Source: Gemmatimonadota bacterium (lineage in GTDB: Bacteria > Gemmatimonadota > Gemmatimonadetes > Longimicrobiales > Gaopeijiaceae). From it: a stretch of DNA of 64,000 nt. Within the stretch, counting starts at the first letter, position 1. Every line of letters starts with the position of its first letter. The notes under the pieces are model-generated. The model searched no databases and was not told where the DNA came from. It was given only the letters and a program-made list of their open reading frames with translations. The position numbers were made by a program, and so were the translations under genes. Where the stretch lies: positions 62,001-126,000 of the forward strand of contig JAJDXG010000063.1 in NCBI GenBank assembly GCA_022823365.1, given 5' to 3'. This document shows positions 48,204-55,159 of this stretch, in pieces.

Positions 48204-49595
48204 TCATTGTTGCTCCCCTGAGCGTCGGTCGATTTCGTCCCTCACGGCCCGGCAGATGACGACCGCCGCGGGATCTCCGGCGGGATCGGGTACATCCAGT
48301 TCCGAATAGGGAACGCGGCGATTACAACCATCGATCGACCCTCCATCGATATCGGCTGCGAACTCGACATCTTCGCCACCGAGCTTCCATGTCATTCTCA
48401 GTTGCATGGAGAACGCCCTTCCTCGCCCTGCGAATGCGGTCAGCGTCAATCCAACCCTCAGCTCCAGCATCCGGTCATTGGAAAGTCGAAACCCCGGCAA
48501 CACGATATGGGACTGCTTGGTCTGCCTCCAATGTGTCTCCGTGAAGACGTTGCCGGCAGGGAATGTCGGTCGAGCCTCCCTTATTCGTATGTGTGAACCC
48601 CAGTACGTCTTGGCAAACAACCGTTCCAGCGGCGCCAGCCCCTCCTCGACCTCCTCCAGAACGGGACGCATCCACAGGAAGAACACGTTGTCCAGTCGTT
48701 CGACATCCGCCTTGGCGGGCGCGCCCATGCTGTACTTCCGAGCGAACAGTTCGCTTTCCTTGCGACTATCTGCCGCCTCACGCACGGATTCTCCCTTCGC
48801 GGCCTGGATCGCCAGACCGAGCGACCACAGGACATTCTCCAGCATGAACCCCGAGAGCAGCCCCATGCGACCCACGTCGGCATTCTGAAGCGCCCCGATG
48901 TAGCGGTCCCGCTCGGCGCTCTTGATCACCATCGGTGGCAGGCCGGACCTCAGCAGGACGTAGTTGGTGAGTAAACGCGCCGTTCGTCCGTTTCCGTCAT
49001 CGAACGGATGAATCCGCAAGAAGCTCCAATGTGACTCGGCCAGAAACAGTGGTAACCGAGACCGGCTCAGATCCAGGTCGCGCAAGTCGCGCCAAAAGTC
49101 ACGGATCCACGCCTGCATGAGTGCGGGGGTCTCTTCCGGCTCCGCGAACCGATGGAGTTCTCCGGTCGCCGTTCTCACATGGTTCGGCTGCGTCTTGTAA
49201 TCTCCCGGGACGATCCGCTTCCGGGTCTGTTGCCCGTCCGGTGTCTGTGCAACGTGCCAGAACGGCTCCTTGAGAAGAATCTTGTTCAGGTCCCGTATGT
49301 CGCCCTCGCCAAGAACCCGCTCTGAGCCGGCCAGATGTCGCGTGTGCTTGATCGCGACATCGTGCGCCTTCATCTCCTCGTAGTGGCGCATCGGATGCCC
49401 GCCGGATGTGCGACCGAAGATGAGCAGCAGCTCCGTCTCGTGGTAGGTGAGCGTGTTGCCCTCGATGTGGTTGCTGTTGTAGTTCCACTCGAGGCGCAGC
49501 TTCCTCCACAGCCGCTCGTCGTCTTCCTCTCGCATGGTCGCCCGGCGCTCCCGCCATTCCGAGATCGCCGCCGCCAATGCCCCCGAGTCCATCAT
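48204..49595 (-). CDS. Fic family protein, class II (N-terminal inhibitory helix)
   Basis: A 463-residue Fic enzyme, probably an AMP-transferase modifying hydroxyl side chains of a target protein. The catalytic motif HPFDDGNGRTAR is complete at residues 196-207. The autoinhibitory motif of the class II type, S-x-x-x-E-G, is seen as Ser41-Glu45-Gly46 in SNHIEGN, upstream of the Fic core, so no separate antitoxin is needed. The C-terminal 200 residues are uncharacterised (possibly target-binding). ATG ATG gives two adjacent possible starts; AGGGG lies upstream. Base composition is lower in GC than the flanks (37 of 60 in 48421-48480). It lies downstream of the AAA/DUF4143 gene, 109 bases away. 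Confidence 0.9.
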   Translation of the reverse strand: MMDSGALAAAISEWRERRATMREEDDERLWRKLRLEWNYNSNHIEGNTLTYHETELLLIFGRTSGGHPMRHYEEMKAHDVAIKHTRHLAGSERVLGEGDIRDLNKILLKEPFWHVAQTPDGQQTRKRIVPGDYKTQPNHVRTATGELHRFAEPEETPALMQAWIRDFWRDLRDLDLSRSRLPLFLAESHWSFLRIHPFDDGNGRTARLLTNYVLLRSGLPPMVIKSAERDRYIGALQNADVGRMGLLSGFMLENVLWSLGLAIQAAKGESVREAADSRKESELFARKYSMGAPAKADVERLDNVFFLWMRPVLEEVEEGLAPLERLFAKTYWGSHIRIREARPTFPAGNVFTETHWRQTKQSHIVLPGFRLSNDRMLELRVGLTLTAFAGRGRAFSMQLRMTWKLGGEDVEFAADIDGGSIDGCNRRVPYSELDVPDPAGDPAAVVICRAVRDEIDRRSGEQQ

Positions 49596-49704: not shown

Positions 49705-50982
49705 TCACGGCCCCAACACCCCCACGGGAATCACGCCCACGCCATCCGGTCGCTGGTATCCGTAGCCGCTGCCGGTGATGACGGCGAGCGCCGCCGGCTG
49801 ACCGCTACGGGCCGTGTCCACCCGGTTCGCAAATCGGAGAAGCGCGGCGGCGGCCTCGTCGATTCGTCCCTGGCCCAGCTTGACCTCGAACGCGGCCCAT
49901 CGCCCCGGACCGGCGTCCACGACCGCGTCGACCTCCAGACCCGTGTTGTCGCGATAGTGGTAGACGCGCGCGTCCATCGCCTGAGCGTACACACGCAGGT
50001 CTCGAACGACCATTGATTCGAAGAGCAATCCGAACCACGGGATGTCCTTCATCAGGTTCTCGGGTCTGGCATTCAGCGCCGCGGTCGCGAGCGAAGGATC
50101 CGTGAAGTGCCGTTTCGGAGCGTGCCTGAGGCGTGATCGAGACCGCAGATGCGGGGCCCACGGTGGCTGGTGCTCCACCACCATGAGGCGTTCGAGGGCA
50201 GCGAGGTAGGAGCGGGCGGTCTCTCCCGAGAGCGAATGGTCCGCACCGCCCGCATCCGTCGCCATGGTCGCGAGGGACGCGCAGGTCGCCGTGTTTCGCG
50301 CGAGCGTCTGGAGGAACCGGCCAACCCTGCCCGGATCCCTGCCGATGCCGTCTACGCGCCGGATGTCCACCCGGCGGATTTCGTCCAGGTAGTCGCGGTT
50401 GGCCAGCATTGCATGGTCCTCGGACTTCCGCCGAAAGTGACCGGGCCAGCCACCGACGCAAACCAGCGTGGCCAGATCCTGAAGAGGCAGGTTCCGAACC
50501 AGGCTCGGCACGGGCTCGCCCTGGAGAACCCGCCTCAGGGAAACCCGCCCCGTCGCGCGTCCGAGTTCGAACAGCGACATGGGGCGGAGCCGAAGGCGGC
50601 TTATCCGGCCGGCTCCGGTATGTCGCGTGATGTCGTCGGGCGGAACGGCGGAGCCGGTGAGGATGAAGTGGCCCAGGCCCGGGCGGTCATCGACGGCCCG
50701 CCGCACGTAGTTCCAGATGTCGGGCTCGGCCTGCCACTCATCGATCAATCGCGGAGTCGTGCCTTCCAGGAGCAACCTCGGATCGACCGCCATCGTCTGC
50801 TGCACGGCCGGATCCGCGTCCATGAGGACTTCGCTCGCTGCTGCCTGCCTGGCCGTCGTGGTCTTGCCGCAGACCCTCGGCCCTTCGATCACGACCGCCC
50901 CGGCTGCCGCGAGCCTCTCGGTCAGTTCACGGTCGGCGATCCGGGGACGATAGCCGGACGCGGGCGGGGAATCGGGTGTCAT
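49705..50982 (-). CDS. AAA-type ATPase with DUF4143 domain
   Basis: A 425-residue protein of the large AAA_14/DUF4143 ATPase family, widespread and of unknown function. Walker A is GPRVCGKTTTAR at about 34-45, Walker B lies in PRLIDEWQAEPDIW, and sensor-like FILTGSA follows. The DUF4143 part includes LFESMVVRDLRVYAQ and a C-terminal block GLEVDAVV...AAFEVKLGQ with the D-x-n-E-x-K spacing of a restriction-endonuclease-like fold. The ATG at 50982 is chosen because a promoter -10 box ends about seven bases before it. Four 23-bp repeats precede it. A longer frame reads into the repeats (start of the peptide LLQNHD...). Fic lies downstream. Confidence 0.85.
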   Translation of the reverse strand: MTPDSPPASGYRPRIADRELTERLAAAGAVVIEGPRVCGKTTTARQAAASEVLMDADPAVQQTMAVDPRLLLEGTTPRLIDEWQAEPDIWNYVRRAVDDRPGLGHFILTGSAVPPDDITRHTGAGRISRLRLRPMSLFELGRATGRVSLRRVLQGEPVPSLVRNLPLQDLATLVCVGGWPGHFRRKSEDHAMLANRDYLDEIRRVDIRRVDGIGRDPGRVGRFLQTLARNTATCASLATMATDAGGADHSLSGETARSYLAALERLMVVEHQPPWAPHLRSRSRLRHAPKRHFTDPSLATAALNARPENLMKDIPWFGLLFESMVVRDLRVYAQAMDARVYHYRDNTGLEVDAVVDAGPGRWAAFEVKLGQGRIDEAAAALLRFANRVDTARSGQPAALAVITGSGYGYQRPDGVGVIPVGVLGP

Positions 50983-50989
50983 GATTGAA

Positions 50990-51018
50990 AGTATGGCAGA
51001 TCGATCGTGGTTTTGCAA
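50990..51018 (-). promoter_or_regulatory. Candidate promoter of the DUF4143 ATPase, -35 inside a repeat
   Basis: On the minus strand TTGCAA (51018-51013), the core of the repeat unit nearest the gene, is followed after 17 bases by CATACT (50995-50990). Transcription would begin at or next to the ATG at 50982, giving a leaderless or nearly leaderless message. No Shine-Dalgarno sequence is visible. Confidence 0.5.
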
Positions 51019-51094
51019 CAACACCAGTCGTGTTTTTGCAATTTATTTGATCGGGTGTTTGCAATAACTTCAACCGTGGTTTTGCAATATCACC
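51003..51094. repeat. Four contiguous 23-bp direct repeats (iteron-like)
   Basis: Four units lie head to tail with no spacer: 51003-51025, 51026-51048, 51049-51071 and 51072-51094. TTTGCAA occurs in each at exactly 23-base intervals (51012, 51035, 51058, 51081). The plus-strand consensus core is CGTGGTTTTGCAA; the C, G, and the TTTGCAA are invariant, the 3' part varies. The array is AT-rich (24 GC in 51001-51060), unlike its surroundings. The fourth unit overlaps the stop codon of the TPR gene, and the first carries the -35 box of the ATPase gene. The form suggests cooperative binding sites for a protein, about two helical turns apart. Confidence 0.9.
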
Positions 51095-54000
51095 TGCCTT
51101 CCAGCCCTGCCGCCGCGGCAAGCCCCCGCCGGATGAGTGCCTGCTCGATCACTTCAGTAGGCGACGCCGCGCCGGCGAGCGAATCGGCGCGGGCGCGCAA
51201 TGAGGCGACCGCCTCGGCGCTGACGGGCTCGGGGTCGGGCCCACCGTCGGCGCCTCCCCCCACGACCCCGAGCAACAACCGCACCAGCCGCTCGTCCGGA
51301 TCGAAGGGACGGCCCTGACCGAGCGACTCCGGCCACTCGAGCGCCCTCTCCAAATGGCCGCGGGCGGCCGCGCGGTCCCCGCCATCGAGTTCGTCCAGCG
51401 CGGCCCCGACGTGCGCCAACTCGTACAGGCGATGGCTCTCGCGGGCGTTCTCCGAGGGAAGGACATGCGTGTCCGCCAGGATCCGGATCGCCTCGCCGTG
51501 GTCGCCCGCCTGTAGAAGCGCGCGCACGTGGAGGAGGTCGAGGTTGAAATCGCCCGGGAAGAGCTCGCGGCCGCGACCGGACGTCTCGAGTGCTTCCGCC
51601 CATTGCCCCGCTTCCTGCAGGTGCCGGACGAGGGCGACGTGCAGGAGGCGGCTGCCGGGATCCACGGCCACCGCGCGCCGGAAGTCCGGTCCCGGGTCGC
51701 CGCCCATGATCTCTGCCAGGTGCGCACGCGCCGCGTACACGGGCCCGTAGTCGGGTTCGTCGCCCAAGGCTGCCAGCACGTCAGCCGCCTCGGCGTCTCG
51801 GTCTAGCGCCCACAGGTTCAGCCCGAGCAGGTAGCGCCAGCCCCAGTGCGGGTCTTCGGCAGCCGCCCAGCGCAGGACCGGCAGGGTCTCGGGCCGGTAG
51901 GGGAAGGCGAAAGCGGGATCGATCCCACCGCTCAGCATCCCCGCAGCGTCAGCCAGGAAGGCGCGCCACGCCGCGGGCACCGGGCCACCGCCCACCTCGT
52001 CGGCCAGCGCCAGCAGGTGCGCAGCATCGTCCGGCAGCCCGCGGTTTGCGTAGCCCACGGCGAGCTCCAGCAGCGTCTGCCCCGGATACTCGCTCCGCAT
52101 CGATGCCGCGAGGCGGGCGGCCGCCCCGTCCGCGGACTCTCCGTATCGGTCGTCACGCGCCGCAAGGTACCGTTCGGCCAGGAAGAAATGGTTGAGTGGA
52201 TCGAACTCGAGCAACTCCGCGAGCACGCGCGCCGCCCCGATCCCGTCCCCCGCCAGACGCGACGCGATCGCCAGCACTTCCCGCGCCGGAATGCTTGCCT
52301 GATCGTGTTCGAGCGCCAGCGCGGCGTGGCGGCGCGCCTCCGCCAGATCTCCGCCTTCGAGCGCCAGTTCCGCCAGCCGAACGCGCGCGGCGGCACGGAA
52401 GGCCACCGAGCGGGCGGCCCATCCGAACGAATCGTACGCGTCGGCGCGGCGCCCCAGGGCGCGGTACAGGTTTCCGGCGAGGAAGTTGGCCTCCGGATCA
52501 TACGTGTCGAGCTGGAGCGCACGCCGCGCGTGCACGAGACCCTCCTCGTAGCGGGCCGACCTCAGCGCCAGCGCGCCCAGACCCAGCAACGCCTCCCGGT
52601 TCCACGGCTCGGCTGCGAGCGCCCGGTCGTAGAGCGCCCGCGCTTCAGGGTAGCGGCGGCCACGCGCCAGCTCCCGCGCCTCGAACACCACGCGATCCGT
52701 CTCCGGCAGGGCGTTCCAGGCCTCGGCGTTCGTCGCAAAGGGCCGGGACACCACTCGGTCGCCATCAAGTCCGCAAATCCCGCCGAGACCGGCCTCGCCC
52801 GGATTCGAGCATCCCTCCAGACCCAGTCCGGGCAGCGAAACCCGCCAGGGGCTGTCGGGCGCGACGTCGACCTCGACCACCACCGGCTGGAGGGGCTCGA
52901 GCGCCACCGCGCGCGCCGCGACCTGCTCGCCCCCGGACCACGCCTTCACCGTGTCGGCACTGGTCCCGAAGGCCTGGACCACCACCCGAAGGCGGCCATC
53001 CTCCTGCTCCACGTGCATGGCGCCGTGGGGAGAGGCGTCCGTGAGGCCGCCGGTCCCCTCCAGGGGAAACCAGACCTCCGTCCAGCGGCTGGCCGAGAGG
53101 GGCTCGAACCCGGCCTGCGAGATGGGGTTGCGGTCCGCCCCCGGCTGGTACTGCACGTGCAGCCGTCCCGCCTGGAACTCGACGTACTGCCCGTCCGTGT
53201 CGGTGAGGAGATCCTCCCAGATCCCGCCTTCGCGCGACAGCGCCCACAACCACATCTTGCGCCCGGGCATCTCTTCATGCGGCGCCCAGTGTCCCCAGCC
53301 GTAGCCATCGTCGTGATAGTAGCCGCCGAAGAAGTCGTTCAGCGCGCCCACCACGTGGTACGACTTGCTTCCCCCGAACGCGTTGTTGCGGTAGAGAGGC
53401 AGGAAGCGCCCATCCTCGTCCGCGGGCCAGGGACGCACCCGCCCGGAGTGCTCCAGGTAGGCGTTGCCTGGCACGAAAAGCTCCAGGTCGTCCTGCGCGA
53501 AGGCCGCCGCCGTCATCCAGTTGTAATACGGCTGCTCCAGCGGGGTCGGATTGTGCCACAGCACGCGCGTCTCGAAGGCGGCCCGATCCGGGGGCAGGCG
53601 TATCTCGACGCGCCACGGGGTGCGTGACGGCAGGTCCATGGCGCCAACGATGGCACTCACGCTTCCGTCCGCGTTCTCCCGCAGATCGTAGTCGACGGGG
53701 GTGGCGGTGGCCGGCGTGTGGCCGATCACGCCGAAGTTGAATTCGATCCCGCCCGAGGTCCACGGCCCGCGCAGCGCGATGTCCCGGAATTTCATCACCT
53801 CGTTCCGGTAGATGAACTCGTGGCCGGTCGCCTTCACCACCGCGCCCCACACCTTGCCGCCTACCTCGGGAAGAACGAAGACCTCGATGAGATCGTTCTC
53901 CATGCGCACGACCTTCCATTCCCGGGGCTCCGGCGTCGCGGCGTATCCCTCGAACGTGTGGTAGGGGTACAGCCTGCGGTCGGTGGCAAGCACTGGGACC

Positions 54001-54149
54001 GGATTCGGGTCCGAGAACGGGTAGGTGTCGAGGACGCGCTCCTCCTCGGAAATGCGCGCGCGGGGCCCGGAAGGCGCGCACGAGGCGGCGGTGAGGACGA
54101 CGCACAGGATGGCCGTGGCGAGCGGCTCGCGGCCAGGCCGCGACTTCAT
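51090..54149 (-). CDS. DUF5107 and TPR-repeat lipoprotein
   Basis: A 1019-residue predicted lipoprotein (lipobox TAASC). The N-terminal 450 residues match the DUF5107 pattern: NDLIEVFVLPEVGGKVWGAVVKATGHEFIYRNEVMKFRDIALRGPWTSGGIEFNFG, with GHTPATATPVDY, and PTPLEQPYYNWM, reminiscent of galactose-mutarotase-like beta-sandwiches. About 510-960 is a series of TPR-type helical repeats (AEPWNREALLGLGALALRSARYEEGLVHARRALQLDTYDPEA is one). Domain order is common in Bacteroidota and related bacteria next to glycan enzymes, though none is here. The ATG at 54149 was chosen because it gives the signal. It likely binds carbohydrate and partner proteins; an enzymatic role is unproven. Confidence 0.83.
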   Translation of the reverse strand: MKSRPGREPLATAILCVVLTAASCAPSGPRARISEEERVLDTYPFSDPNPVPVLATDRRLYPYHTFEGYAATPEPREWKVVRMENDLIEVFVLPEVGGKVWGAVVKATGHEFIYRNEVMKFRDIALRGPWTSGGIEFNFGVIGHTPATATPVDYDLRENADGSVSAIVGAMDLPSRTPWRVEIRLPPDRAAFETRVLWHNPTPLEQPYYNWMTAAAFAQDDLELFVPGNAYLEHSGRVRPWPADEDGRFLPLYRNNAFGGSKSYHVVGALNDFFGGYYHDDGYGWGHWAPHEEMPGRKMWLWALSREGGIWEDLLTDTDGQYVEFQAGRLHVQYQPGADRNPISQAGFEPLSASRWTEVWFPLEGTGGLTDASPHGAMHVEQEDGRLRVVVQAFGTSADTVKAWSGGEQVAARAVALEPLQPVVVEVDVAPDSPWRVSLPGLGLEGCSNPGEAGLGGICGLDGDRVVSRPFATNAEAWNALPETDRVVFEARELARGRRYPEARALYDRALAAEPWNREALLGLGALALRSARYEEGLVHARRALQLDTYDPEANFLAGNLYRALGRRADAYDSFGWAARSVAFRAAARVRLAELALEGGDLAEARRHAALALEHDQASIPAREVLAIASRLAGDGIGAARVLAELLEFDPLNHFFLAERYLAARDDRYGESADGAAARLAASMRSEYPGQTLLELAVGYANRGLPDDAAHLLALADEVGGGPVPAAWRAFLADAAGMLSGGIDPAFAFPYRPETLPVLRWAAAEDPHWGWRYLLGLNLWALDRDAEAADVLAALGDEPDYGPVYAARAHLAEIMGGDPGPDFRRAVAVDPGSRLLHVALVRHLQEAGQWAEALETSGRGRELFPGDFNLDLLHVRALLQAGDHGEAIRILADTHVLPSENARESHRLYELAHVGAALDELDGGDRAAARGHLERALEWPESLGQGRPFDPDERLVRLLLGVVGGGADGGPDPEPVSAEAVASLRARADSLAGAASPTEVIEQALIRRGLAAAAGLEGR

Positions 54150-54328
54150 TCGAGCGCCGATATTGTTCGTCCAAACGTGTCGCACGACGTAATTCCCTGG
54201 TCGAAGACAAGGCTCCCCGGCTCCATGCCGGCATCCATTCCGATCCCACGGTATCGGGATTCCATCGATTTCCGCCAGCACCGGCGAGTCGCGGCGTAGC
54301 ACACAGCAGCCGATCCTCTGACCGGCCG

Positions 54329-55159
54329 TTAGGACCCCACCGCGCTCGCCAGCCTCCCGGAGATCTCTCGAAGCCGCAGCCACTGTTGGTAGAAGAGCGG
54401 CAGCAGCATCACGGATTCCATGAACTGGAACACGTACATGACCAGGGCGAAGACCGCGCCGTACTCCGGCGCATCCGTCACCGCGGCGCTCACCGCGAAG
54501 ACCAGCAGAGCGATCATGAACACCCAGTTGATCCCGAAGTTGGCCGCTTCCAGGTCGGAGAGACGGATGTTCCAGCGCATCATGGCGCGCAGGTGTTCGC
54601 CCAGGCGGCCGGGATCGCCGCTGTCGACCGCGTCGACCTGCCGTTCGTGCTCGTCGTTGAGCCCCTGGTTGTACCGCGTGGTCAGCCTGCCGGTGAGGGC
54701 GTAGAGGGTGACGGTGGCAGCGGCCGCCGCGAGACAGCCGAGGAAGACCCGAAAGTTCAGAGTCGCAACGATCACCAGGGTGCCCACCAACCCGAGCATG
54801 CTGTTGATGAGCCCGGGCATCGAATTCTCGAAGAACTCCACGATCTCCCTGAGCATCCCGAGGCGCGCCGTCCGGGTCGAAGTGCTGGAGCCCTCGGCGG
54901 CGGCCACCATCTCTTCGCCCAGCGTGGCGTAGATGCCCCCGTAGGCCCGGCTGTCCACCAGGCGGCGGACCACCGCGATCCCCATGGTGGCGACGCCGAG
55001 GATCGCGAGTTCGTAAAGACCCCGGGCCGAATCGGCGAGAACGCTGTCGATGGCGCGGCCGATGACGAGTGGAAAGAGGACCCACCCGGCCGCCTCCAGA
55101 ACGACCAGCGTCAAGGTCAGCGCGAAACGTCCCGCGAAACGCTTCAGGAAGACCTTCAT
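54329..55159 (-). CDS. ABC-type six-helix membrane domain, no ATPase
   Basis: A 276-residue membrane protein resembling the transmembrane half of an exporter-type ABC transporter (ABC_membrane_3 type): FLKRFAGRFALTLTLVVLEAAGWVLFPLVIGRAIDSVLAD, then a coupling-helix-like YATLGEEMVAA and pairs of helices at about 120-160 and 220-265. No nucleotide-binding domain follows; the gene ends after ASAVGS. It starts 28 bases after icmF in the same direction and is probably the last gene of the lipid arm. It may pair with an ATPase elsewhere, or serve a non-transport role. Confidence 0.75.
   Translation of the reverse strand: MKVFLKRFAGRFALTLTLVVLEAAGWVLFPLVIGRAIDSVLADSARGLYELAILGVATMGIAVVRRLVDSRAYGGIYATLGEEMVAAAEGSSTSTRTARLGMLREIVEFFENSMPGLINSMLGLVGTLVIVATLNFRVFLGCLAAAAATVTLYALTGRLTTRYNQGLNDEHERQVDAVDSGDPGRLGEHLRAMMRWNIRLSDLEAANFGINWVFMIALLVFAVSAAVTDAPEYGAVFALVMYVFQFMESVMLLPLFYQQWLRLREISGRLASAVGS

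Follow-up and report, generated by a model that had tools for sequence, protein, structure and literature searches.

The locus and its repeat array

The window, a stretch of 64,000 nucleotides from a Gemmatimonadota bacterium, carries on its minus strand a gene for an AAA_14-DUF4143 ATPase, and the intergenic gap between the stop codon of the preceding DUF5107-TPR gene and the ATG of this ATPase is filled by an array of direct repeats. The features of the locus are, in gene order:

51090-55085, minus strand: upstream neighbour, a DUF5107 and TPR protein (Pfam), whose stop codon adjoins the array and which lies outside the unit
51066-51088, minus strand: repeat unit 1, ATTGCAAAACCACGGTTGAAGTT (gene strand)
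51043-51065, minus strand: repeat unit 2, ATTGCAAACACCCGATCAAATAA (gene strand)
51020-51042, minus strand: repeat unit 3, ATTGCAAAAACACGACTGGTGTT (gene strand)
50997-51019, minus strand: repeat unit 4, GTTGCAAAACCACGATCGATCTG (gene strand), whose TTGCAA (51013-51018) doubles as the predicted -35
50990-50995, minus strand: predicted -10, CATACT, 17 bp past the fourth TTGCAA (from a consensus match and a test of phase; transcript data are lacking)
49705-50982, minus strand: AAA_14-DUF4143 ATPase of 425 aa, ATG at 50982 and stop at 49705 (Pfam, alignment, AlphaFold, PADLOC)
48204-49595, minus strand: downstream neighbour, a Fic family protein (PADLOC PDC-S04/SoFic-like)

The original prediction described a four-fold recurrence of a TTGCAA-type motif at 23-base intervals, in an AT-rich array placed at a gene start, and each of these points is borne out. 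The motif TTGCAA lies at 51013, 51036, 51059 and 51082, with a spacing of exactly 23 bp, the GC content of the array is 40% against 69% in the window, and its edges are found 2 bp beyond the DUF5107-TPR stop codon and 14 bp short of the ATPase ATG. The pair TTGCAA-N17-TTGCAA occurs three times in the window, no match appeared in any of 100 dinucleotide shuffles, and the array received the best score (79; 51004-51089, period 23, 3.7 copies) of the 50 repeats given for the window by Tandem Repeats Finder.

The four copies are imperfect, with a unit-to-unit identity of 65-78%, and their consensus on the gene strand is (A/G)TTGCAAAAnCACGA followed by a variable linker, the core taking up about 16 of the 23 positions and the diverging linker the remaining 7 bp or so. 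The description of the repeats as spacer-free therefore holds for the period but not for the sequence. A CRISPR array was considered and rejected, as there are no spacers of CRISPR length and the 23-bp period is made up of the core of about 16 bp and the linker of 7 bp. A search of the genome for TTGCAA pairs at gaps of 15-18 bp returned only the array and one two-copy site, a TTGCAA pair with 23-bp spacing and without the CACGA part at L023:1501-1529 (G000:C60:72802), which may be due to chance or be a relic.

The Fic gene downstream matches PADLOC PDC-S04 (E=2.1e-28) and SoFic (3.6e-18), which places two candidate defence genes side by side in the window, as also in L024 and L025. Neighbour clustering of 80 homologue loci gave no conservation of a Fic gene beside the ATPase.

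Conservation of the 23-bp period

The original prediction had proposed that the upstream regions of DUF4143 homologues be scanned for tandem repeats with a TTGCAA-type core. A genome scan provided 80 homologues with 51-92% identity to the ATPase of the window, from Gemmatimonadota, Acidobacteria, Proteobacteria, Actinobacteria, Chloroflexi, Rhodothermales, Elusimicrobia and others, and therefore 81 flanks including that of the window. The outcome was strongly positive, given that a 23-bp array exceeded the threshold of a likelihood score in 70 of the 81 flanks, against only one of 281 flanks of neighbouring genes, while the other 11 homologue flanks remained below this threshold at period 23. 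In the comparison of periods by the same score, 69 loci passed at period 23 and 0-2 at each of the periods 19-22 and 24-27. The pooled self-identity of the 5' flanks of the homologues at lag 23 was 0.403, compared with 0.266 for the control windows (z=34), with a second autocorrelation peak at lag 46 (z=22), and each array contains two to seven copies, mostly three to five.

The TTGCAA-type core itself was recovered in one subclade only, and elsewhere it is the spacing that has been conserved instead of the sequence. The units vary by clade (for example, GCCGAATCACCCGTTG, GCCATTTCTGCCGTTG, CATATTTTGCCTGTTG and TTGCGATTCTCGGGC), when aligned they show a 16-bp core with a linker behind it, and their period is constant. 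Arrays of 23 bp also accompany plasmid homologues from Bacteroides ovatus, B. uniformis, Collinsella aerofaciens, Prosthecochloris aestuarii and Spartinivicinus ruber, as well as homologues on gut-phage and IMG/VR contigs, and the arrays of all these Bacteroides, Collinsella, Prosthecochloris, Spartinivicinus and phage-contig homologues have other unit sequences with the same 23 bp.

The imperfection of the units in the window could be taken as the mark of a chance pattern, of a decayed coding repeat or of a CRISPR-like remnant. Such an origin can practically be discarded, since no shuffle reproduced the pair pattern, a single period is conserved in the great majority of the homologue flanks, and 23 bp is not a multiple of the codon.

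The ATPase as the probable reader of the array

The ATPase has Pfam matches above the gathering score to DUF4143 (PF13635; 121 bits, cut-off 28.1) and AAA_14 (PF13173; 45.9 bits, cut-off 27). In 55 sequences, the Walker A residues G39-K40-T41 and the PD-(D/E)XK residues E322, D352, E366 and K368 are invariant, and the AlphaFold2 model built with 55 homologues (pLDDT 91.2, pTM 0.91) predicts an AAA+ domain (about 15-190), a winged helix (about 212-294) and a C-terminal PD-(D/E)XK nuclease. The predicted winged helix comprises the helices 217-229, 237-248 and 253-265, the last of which is the recognition helix, together with a strand pair. Among the PDB structures matched by Foldseek, the leading ones were 2qen, an ATPase from Pyrococcus, and 2qby, Orc1/Cdc6 bound to origin DNA; their whole-chain TM-scores are low, 0.20-0.30 in the case of Orc1/Cdc6. 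A sequence search of the PDB gave no convincing match to the ATPase, NCBIfam and PHROGs gave none, and a library of viral structures returned only generic AAA+ matches of the clamp-loader type.

The original prediction proposed that the repeats serve for binding, with either the ATPase or a partner as the protein that recognises them. Neighbour clustering found no gene conserved beside more than six of the 80 homologues, which makes a dedicated partner unlikely, and the part of the claim that concerns the ATPase is the one that gains support, given that the repeat covaries with its predicted recognition helix. The correlation of distances with the protein was r=0.60 for the repeat core and 0.12 for the linker. 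When the rest of the protein was removed, the best local predictor of the core was the segment 222-236, with 252-266 among the top five (47 sequences), and in a larger set of 79 sequences the two top predictors were the residues 222-236 and 247-261. DNA columns 8-11, taken alone, were best predicted by the residues 247-261 and 252-266, and of the top 40 residue-base couplings eight involve this helix region (residues 247-258), where 1.2 would be expected (nominal p 1.5e-5).

In these statistics the pairs, although correlated, are counted as if they were independent, and the phylogeny is removed only in part. When remote sequences were added to the covariation set, 21 of 100 arrays had an uncertain phase and were excluded. 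Some residues outside the winged helix (N346/T347 and T63) are also found among the top coupled pairs, and columns 12-16 point partly to the AAA+ segments 91-105 and 121-135. A weaker second signal couples columns 1-2 of the core with N346/T347, in a hairpin of the nuclease domain, a hint that this domain may touch the array as well. It had been suggested that a nuclease-like motif in the C-terminus makes DNA recognition plausible; the nuclease residues are indeed invariant, but the domain that probably reads the DNA is not the nuclease but the winged helix, which is contained in the Pfam DUF4143 region.

The array could in principle be read by another DNA-binding protein, encoded elsewhere, with the ATPase as merely the regulated gene, as there are no direct binding data and a promoter of this kind could serve any regulator. 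Paralogues within one genome, however, have different unit motifs, and likely orthologues across two genera retain theirs (L006/L140 TTTCTCGTA; L009/L147 GTTGAAAA-ATGTCT), so that this reading needs one dedicated regulator for each paralogue, when no gene is conserved nearby and the unit sequence tracks the recognition helix of the ATPase. Given this, a foreign reader appears very improbable, and we consider it quite likely that the ATPase binds its own array, a self-recognition that is well supported but inferred, in the absence of binding, footprint or expression data.

Promoter register and the proposed effect of binding

The promoter was called by consensus match. Its predicted -10 occupies the position in which the next TTGCAA would lie, one 23-bp period on, and the ATG of the ATPase is found 8 nt downstream, which would imply a leaderless mRNA, an inference for which there are no transcript data. 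In the 30 homologues with a recognisable pair, the phase of the -35 and -10 relative to the array is constant (Rayleigh p about 1e-8). In the TTGCAA clade, where a repeat doubles as the -35, the phase of the -35 is partly given by construction. This does not apply to 16 loci with a -35 outside the array, and in all 16 it starts 19-22 bp after the last core.

The array, the conservation of its period, its paralogue-specific units, its promoter register and the lack of a conserved partner gene were observed directly. We favour, with some reserve, the interpretation that the ATPase reads the array as the operator of its own promoter, a model for which no binding, footprint or expression data are available. 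Each 23-bp unit would be bound in a fixed direction by a single protomer, through the recognition helix of its winged helix at the least, and protomers placed side by side on three to five units may form an AAA+ row that winds up around the DNA, with binding along the array inferred to be cooperative. A length of 23 bp corresponds to approximately 2.2 turns of the duplex. Contacts between neighbouring protomers in the AAA+ row may explain, again by inference, how a constant period can go together with diverging sequences.

Should the ATPase bind, its effect is probably repression, although the sign and the role of the regulation are inferred and have not been shown. In the clade of the window, as in L105-L107, units overlap the -35 and -10 or occupy the space between them, and in the TTGCAA clade a loaded array with a unit in this position should block the RNA polymerase, which would result in autorepression. 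In many homologues, however, the repeats stop a short way before the -35, an arrangement that also suits activation. In the GCCGAATCACCCGTTG-type clades, for example, some 20 bp separate the last core from a weak -35 whose phase is fixed, and an ATPase bound upstream of it might recruit the RNA polymerase and establish a positive feedback. Activation seems improbable, given that in the window clade and L105-L107 a bound protein should block the polymerase.

The array may also be mainly a platform in cis, on which the ATPase-nuclease is stored, assembled or kept inactive until it is released or armed by invading DNA, with transcription as a secondary matter. The intact nuclease residues, the ORC/STAND-like AAA+ fold, the coupling of columns 1-2 to the nuclease-domain residues 346-347, and a number of copies (three to five, up to seven) that exceeds the needs of a simple repressor are all compatible with this, and the family is a listed defence candidate, PDC-S01. 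On the other hand, the arrays lie at the start of the gene itself and in promoter register, which an operator explains directly, and two relatives from the same genus retain the repeats after the loss of the ATPase, which indicates that the array alone is tolerated, so that a platform seems unlikely. Another reading is a one-gene immune switch, in which the AAA+ nuclease would polymerise on the array, the gene being silenced and the protein resting, until invader DNA or another trigger releases it from the array as an active nuclease. The orthogonal arrays of the many paralogues would then avoid cross-silencing, but we regard this switch as speculative and rather improbable.

Relation to known systems

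The ATPase of the window is a candidate of the defence family PDC-S01 by its PADLOC match (PDLC04790, E=1.6e-68, residues 11-389), with antiviral activity unproven. As described for this family, it is an ATPase fused to a PD-(D/E)XK domain (PMC12988326), and no operator array was described for PDC-S01 in the literature searched. PDC-S01 has been described as ranking fourth in frequency among the candidate defence systems of prokaryotes, most of which still await experimental validation (PMC12988326). A search of the literature, which did not cover most subscription journals or any bioRxiv preprints, found no report of a DUF4143/PDC-S01 operator, and novelty remains unproven.

Direct-repeat operators and iterons are already known, and iteron plasmids present directional direct repeats of approximately two turns, with the cognate winged-helix Rep encoded next to them. 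The array of the window is similar in its directional repeats of about two helical turns beside a cognate winged-helix gene, with autoregulation likely, and the iteron-type criterion of direct repeats with a fixed period and orientation beside the cognate gene is met in 70 of the 81 flanks, while binding by the cognate winged-helix protein is suggested only by the covariation with the recognition helix. The DUF4143 arrays differ in being mostly chromosomal, with many paralogues per genome, in having an AAA+ nuclease as the protein, and in the lack of evidence that they act in a replication origin. Orc1/Cdc6 and the archaeal STAND-type ATPases (2qby, 2qen), which are among the top Foldseek matches, share the combination of AAA+ and winged helix, but the similarity is remote (TM 0.2-0.5), the ATPase of the window has an additional nuclease domain, and its sites are arranged in tandem at the promoter of its own gene. 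The type II toxin-antitoxin operons with autorepression are also small and dispensable loci, with their own operator overlapping the promoter, whereas the locus of the window has a single gene without a conserved partner. A two-gene operon of this type was rejected, as no neighbour is conserved in more than six of the 80 loci.

The constant 23-bp promoter array offers a ready DNA substrate for each PDC-S01 protein, and together with the tracking of the recognition helix it predicts the binding domain and the spacing of the protomers, so that function can be tested directly. Dozens of natural pairs of recognition helix and site also constitute a data set on protein-DNA specificity.

The wider DUF4143 family and the decay of the locus

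There are 19 DUF4143 matches in the genome of the window and 34 in a genome of the same family. In a sample of the phylum, 23 of 48 DUF4143 genes have direct repeats of 22 or 23 bp (above the 99th percentile of controls). The 22-bp period is found in a minority of genes (L006, L140, L127, L187 and L188, and also on Rhodoferax and Agrobacterium plasmids), and it may be the mark of a subfamily with a different packing of the protomers.

Many DUF4143 genes without an array have one inverted repeat adjoining the start codon (at L111, for example, it reads CTTGAATATTGAGCGGCGTGCGCTCAATATTCAAG), a statement that is weakened by the fact that only eight of the 48 pass a strict inverted-repeat threshold. 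A single long inverted repeat next to the start codon, with a sequence that differs from gene to gene, was observed at L111, L108, L128, L136, L149, L130, L005 and L001. The Thermus DUF4143 gene on pTT27 has no direct array, and a short inverted repeat lies beside its start instead. The plasmid-dependent induction of TT_P0211 requires Argonaute (PMC4406477), but this was not counted as evidence, given that the tag was not matched to the Thermus gene.

Finally, the DUF5107-array-ATPase-Fic locus is decaying in the genus of the window, and the ATPase gene looks dispensable. L195 and L197 have kept three repeats, with no ATPase match within the flank examined, and L198 and L200-L202 show no array either, with a C-terminal remnant of the ATPase in L201 and L202. 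The three TTGCAA-type repeats follow the DUF5107 gene at L195:3000-3075 and on the minus strand of L197 (about 1500-1430), where they merge into a stretch that resembles the RWAAFEV codons of the nuclease domain, as could be produced by an internal deletion.
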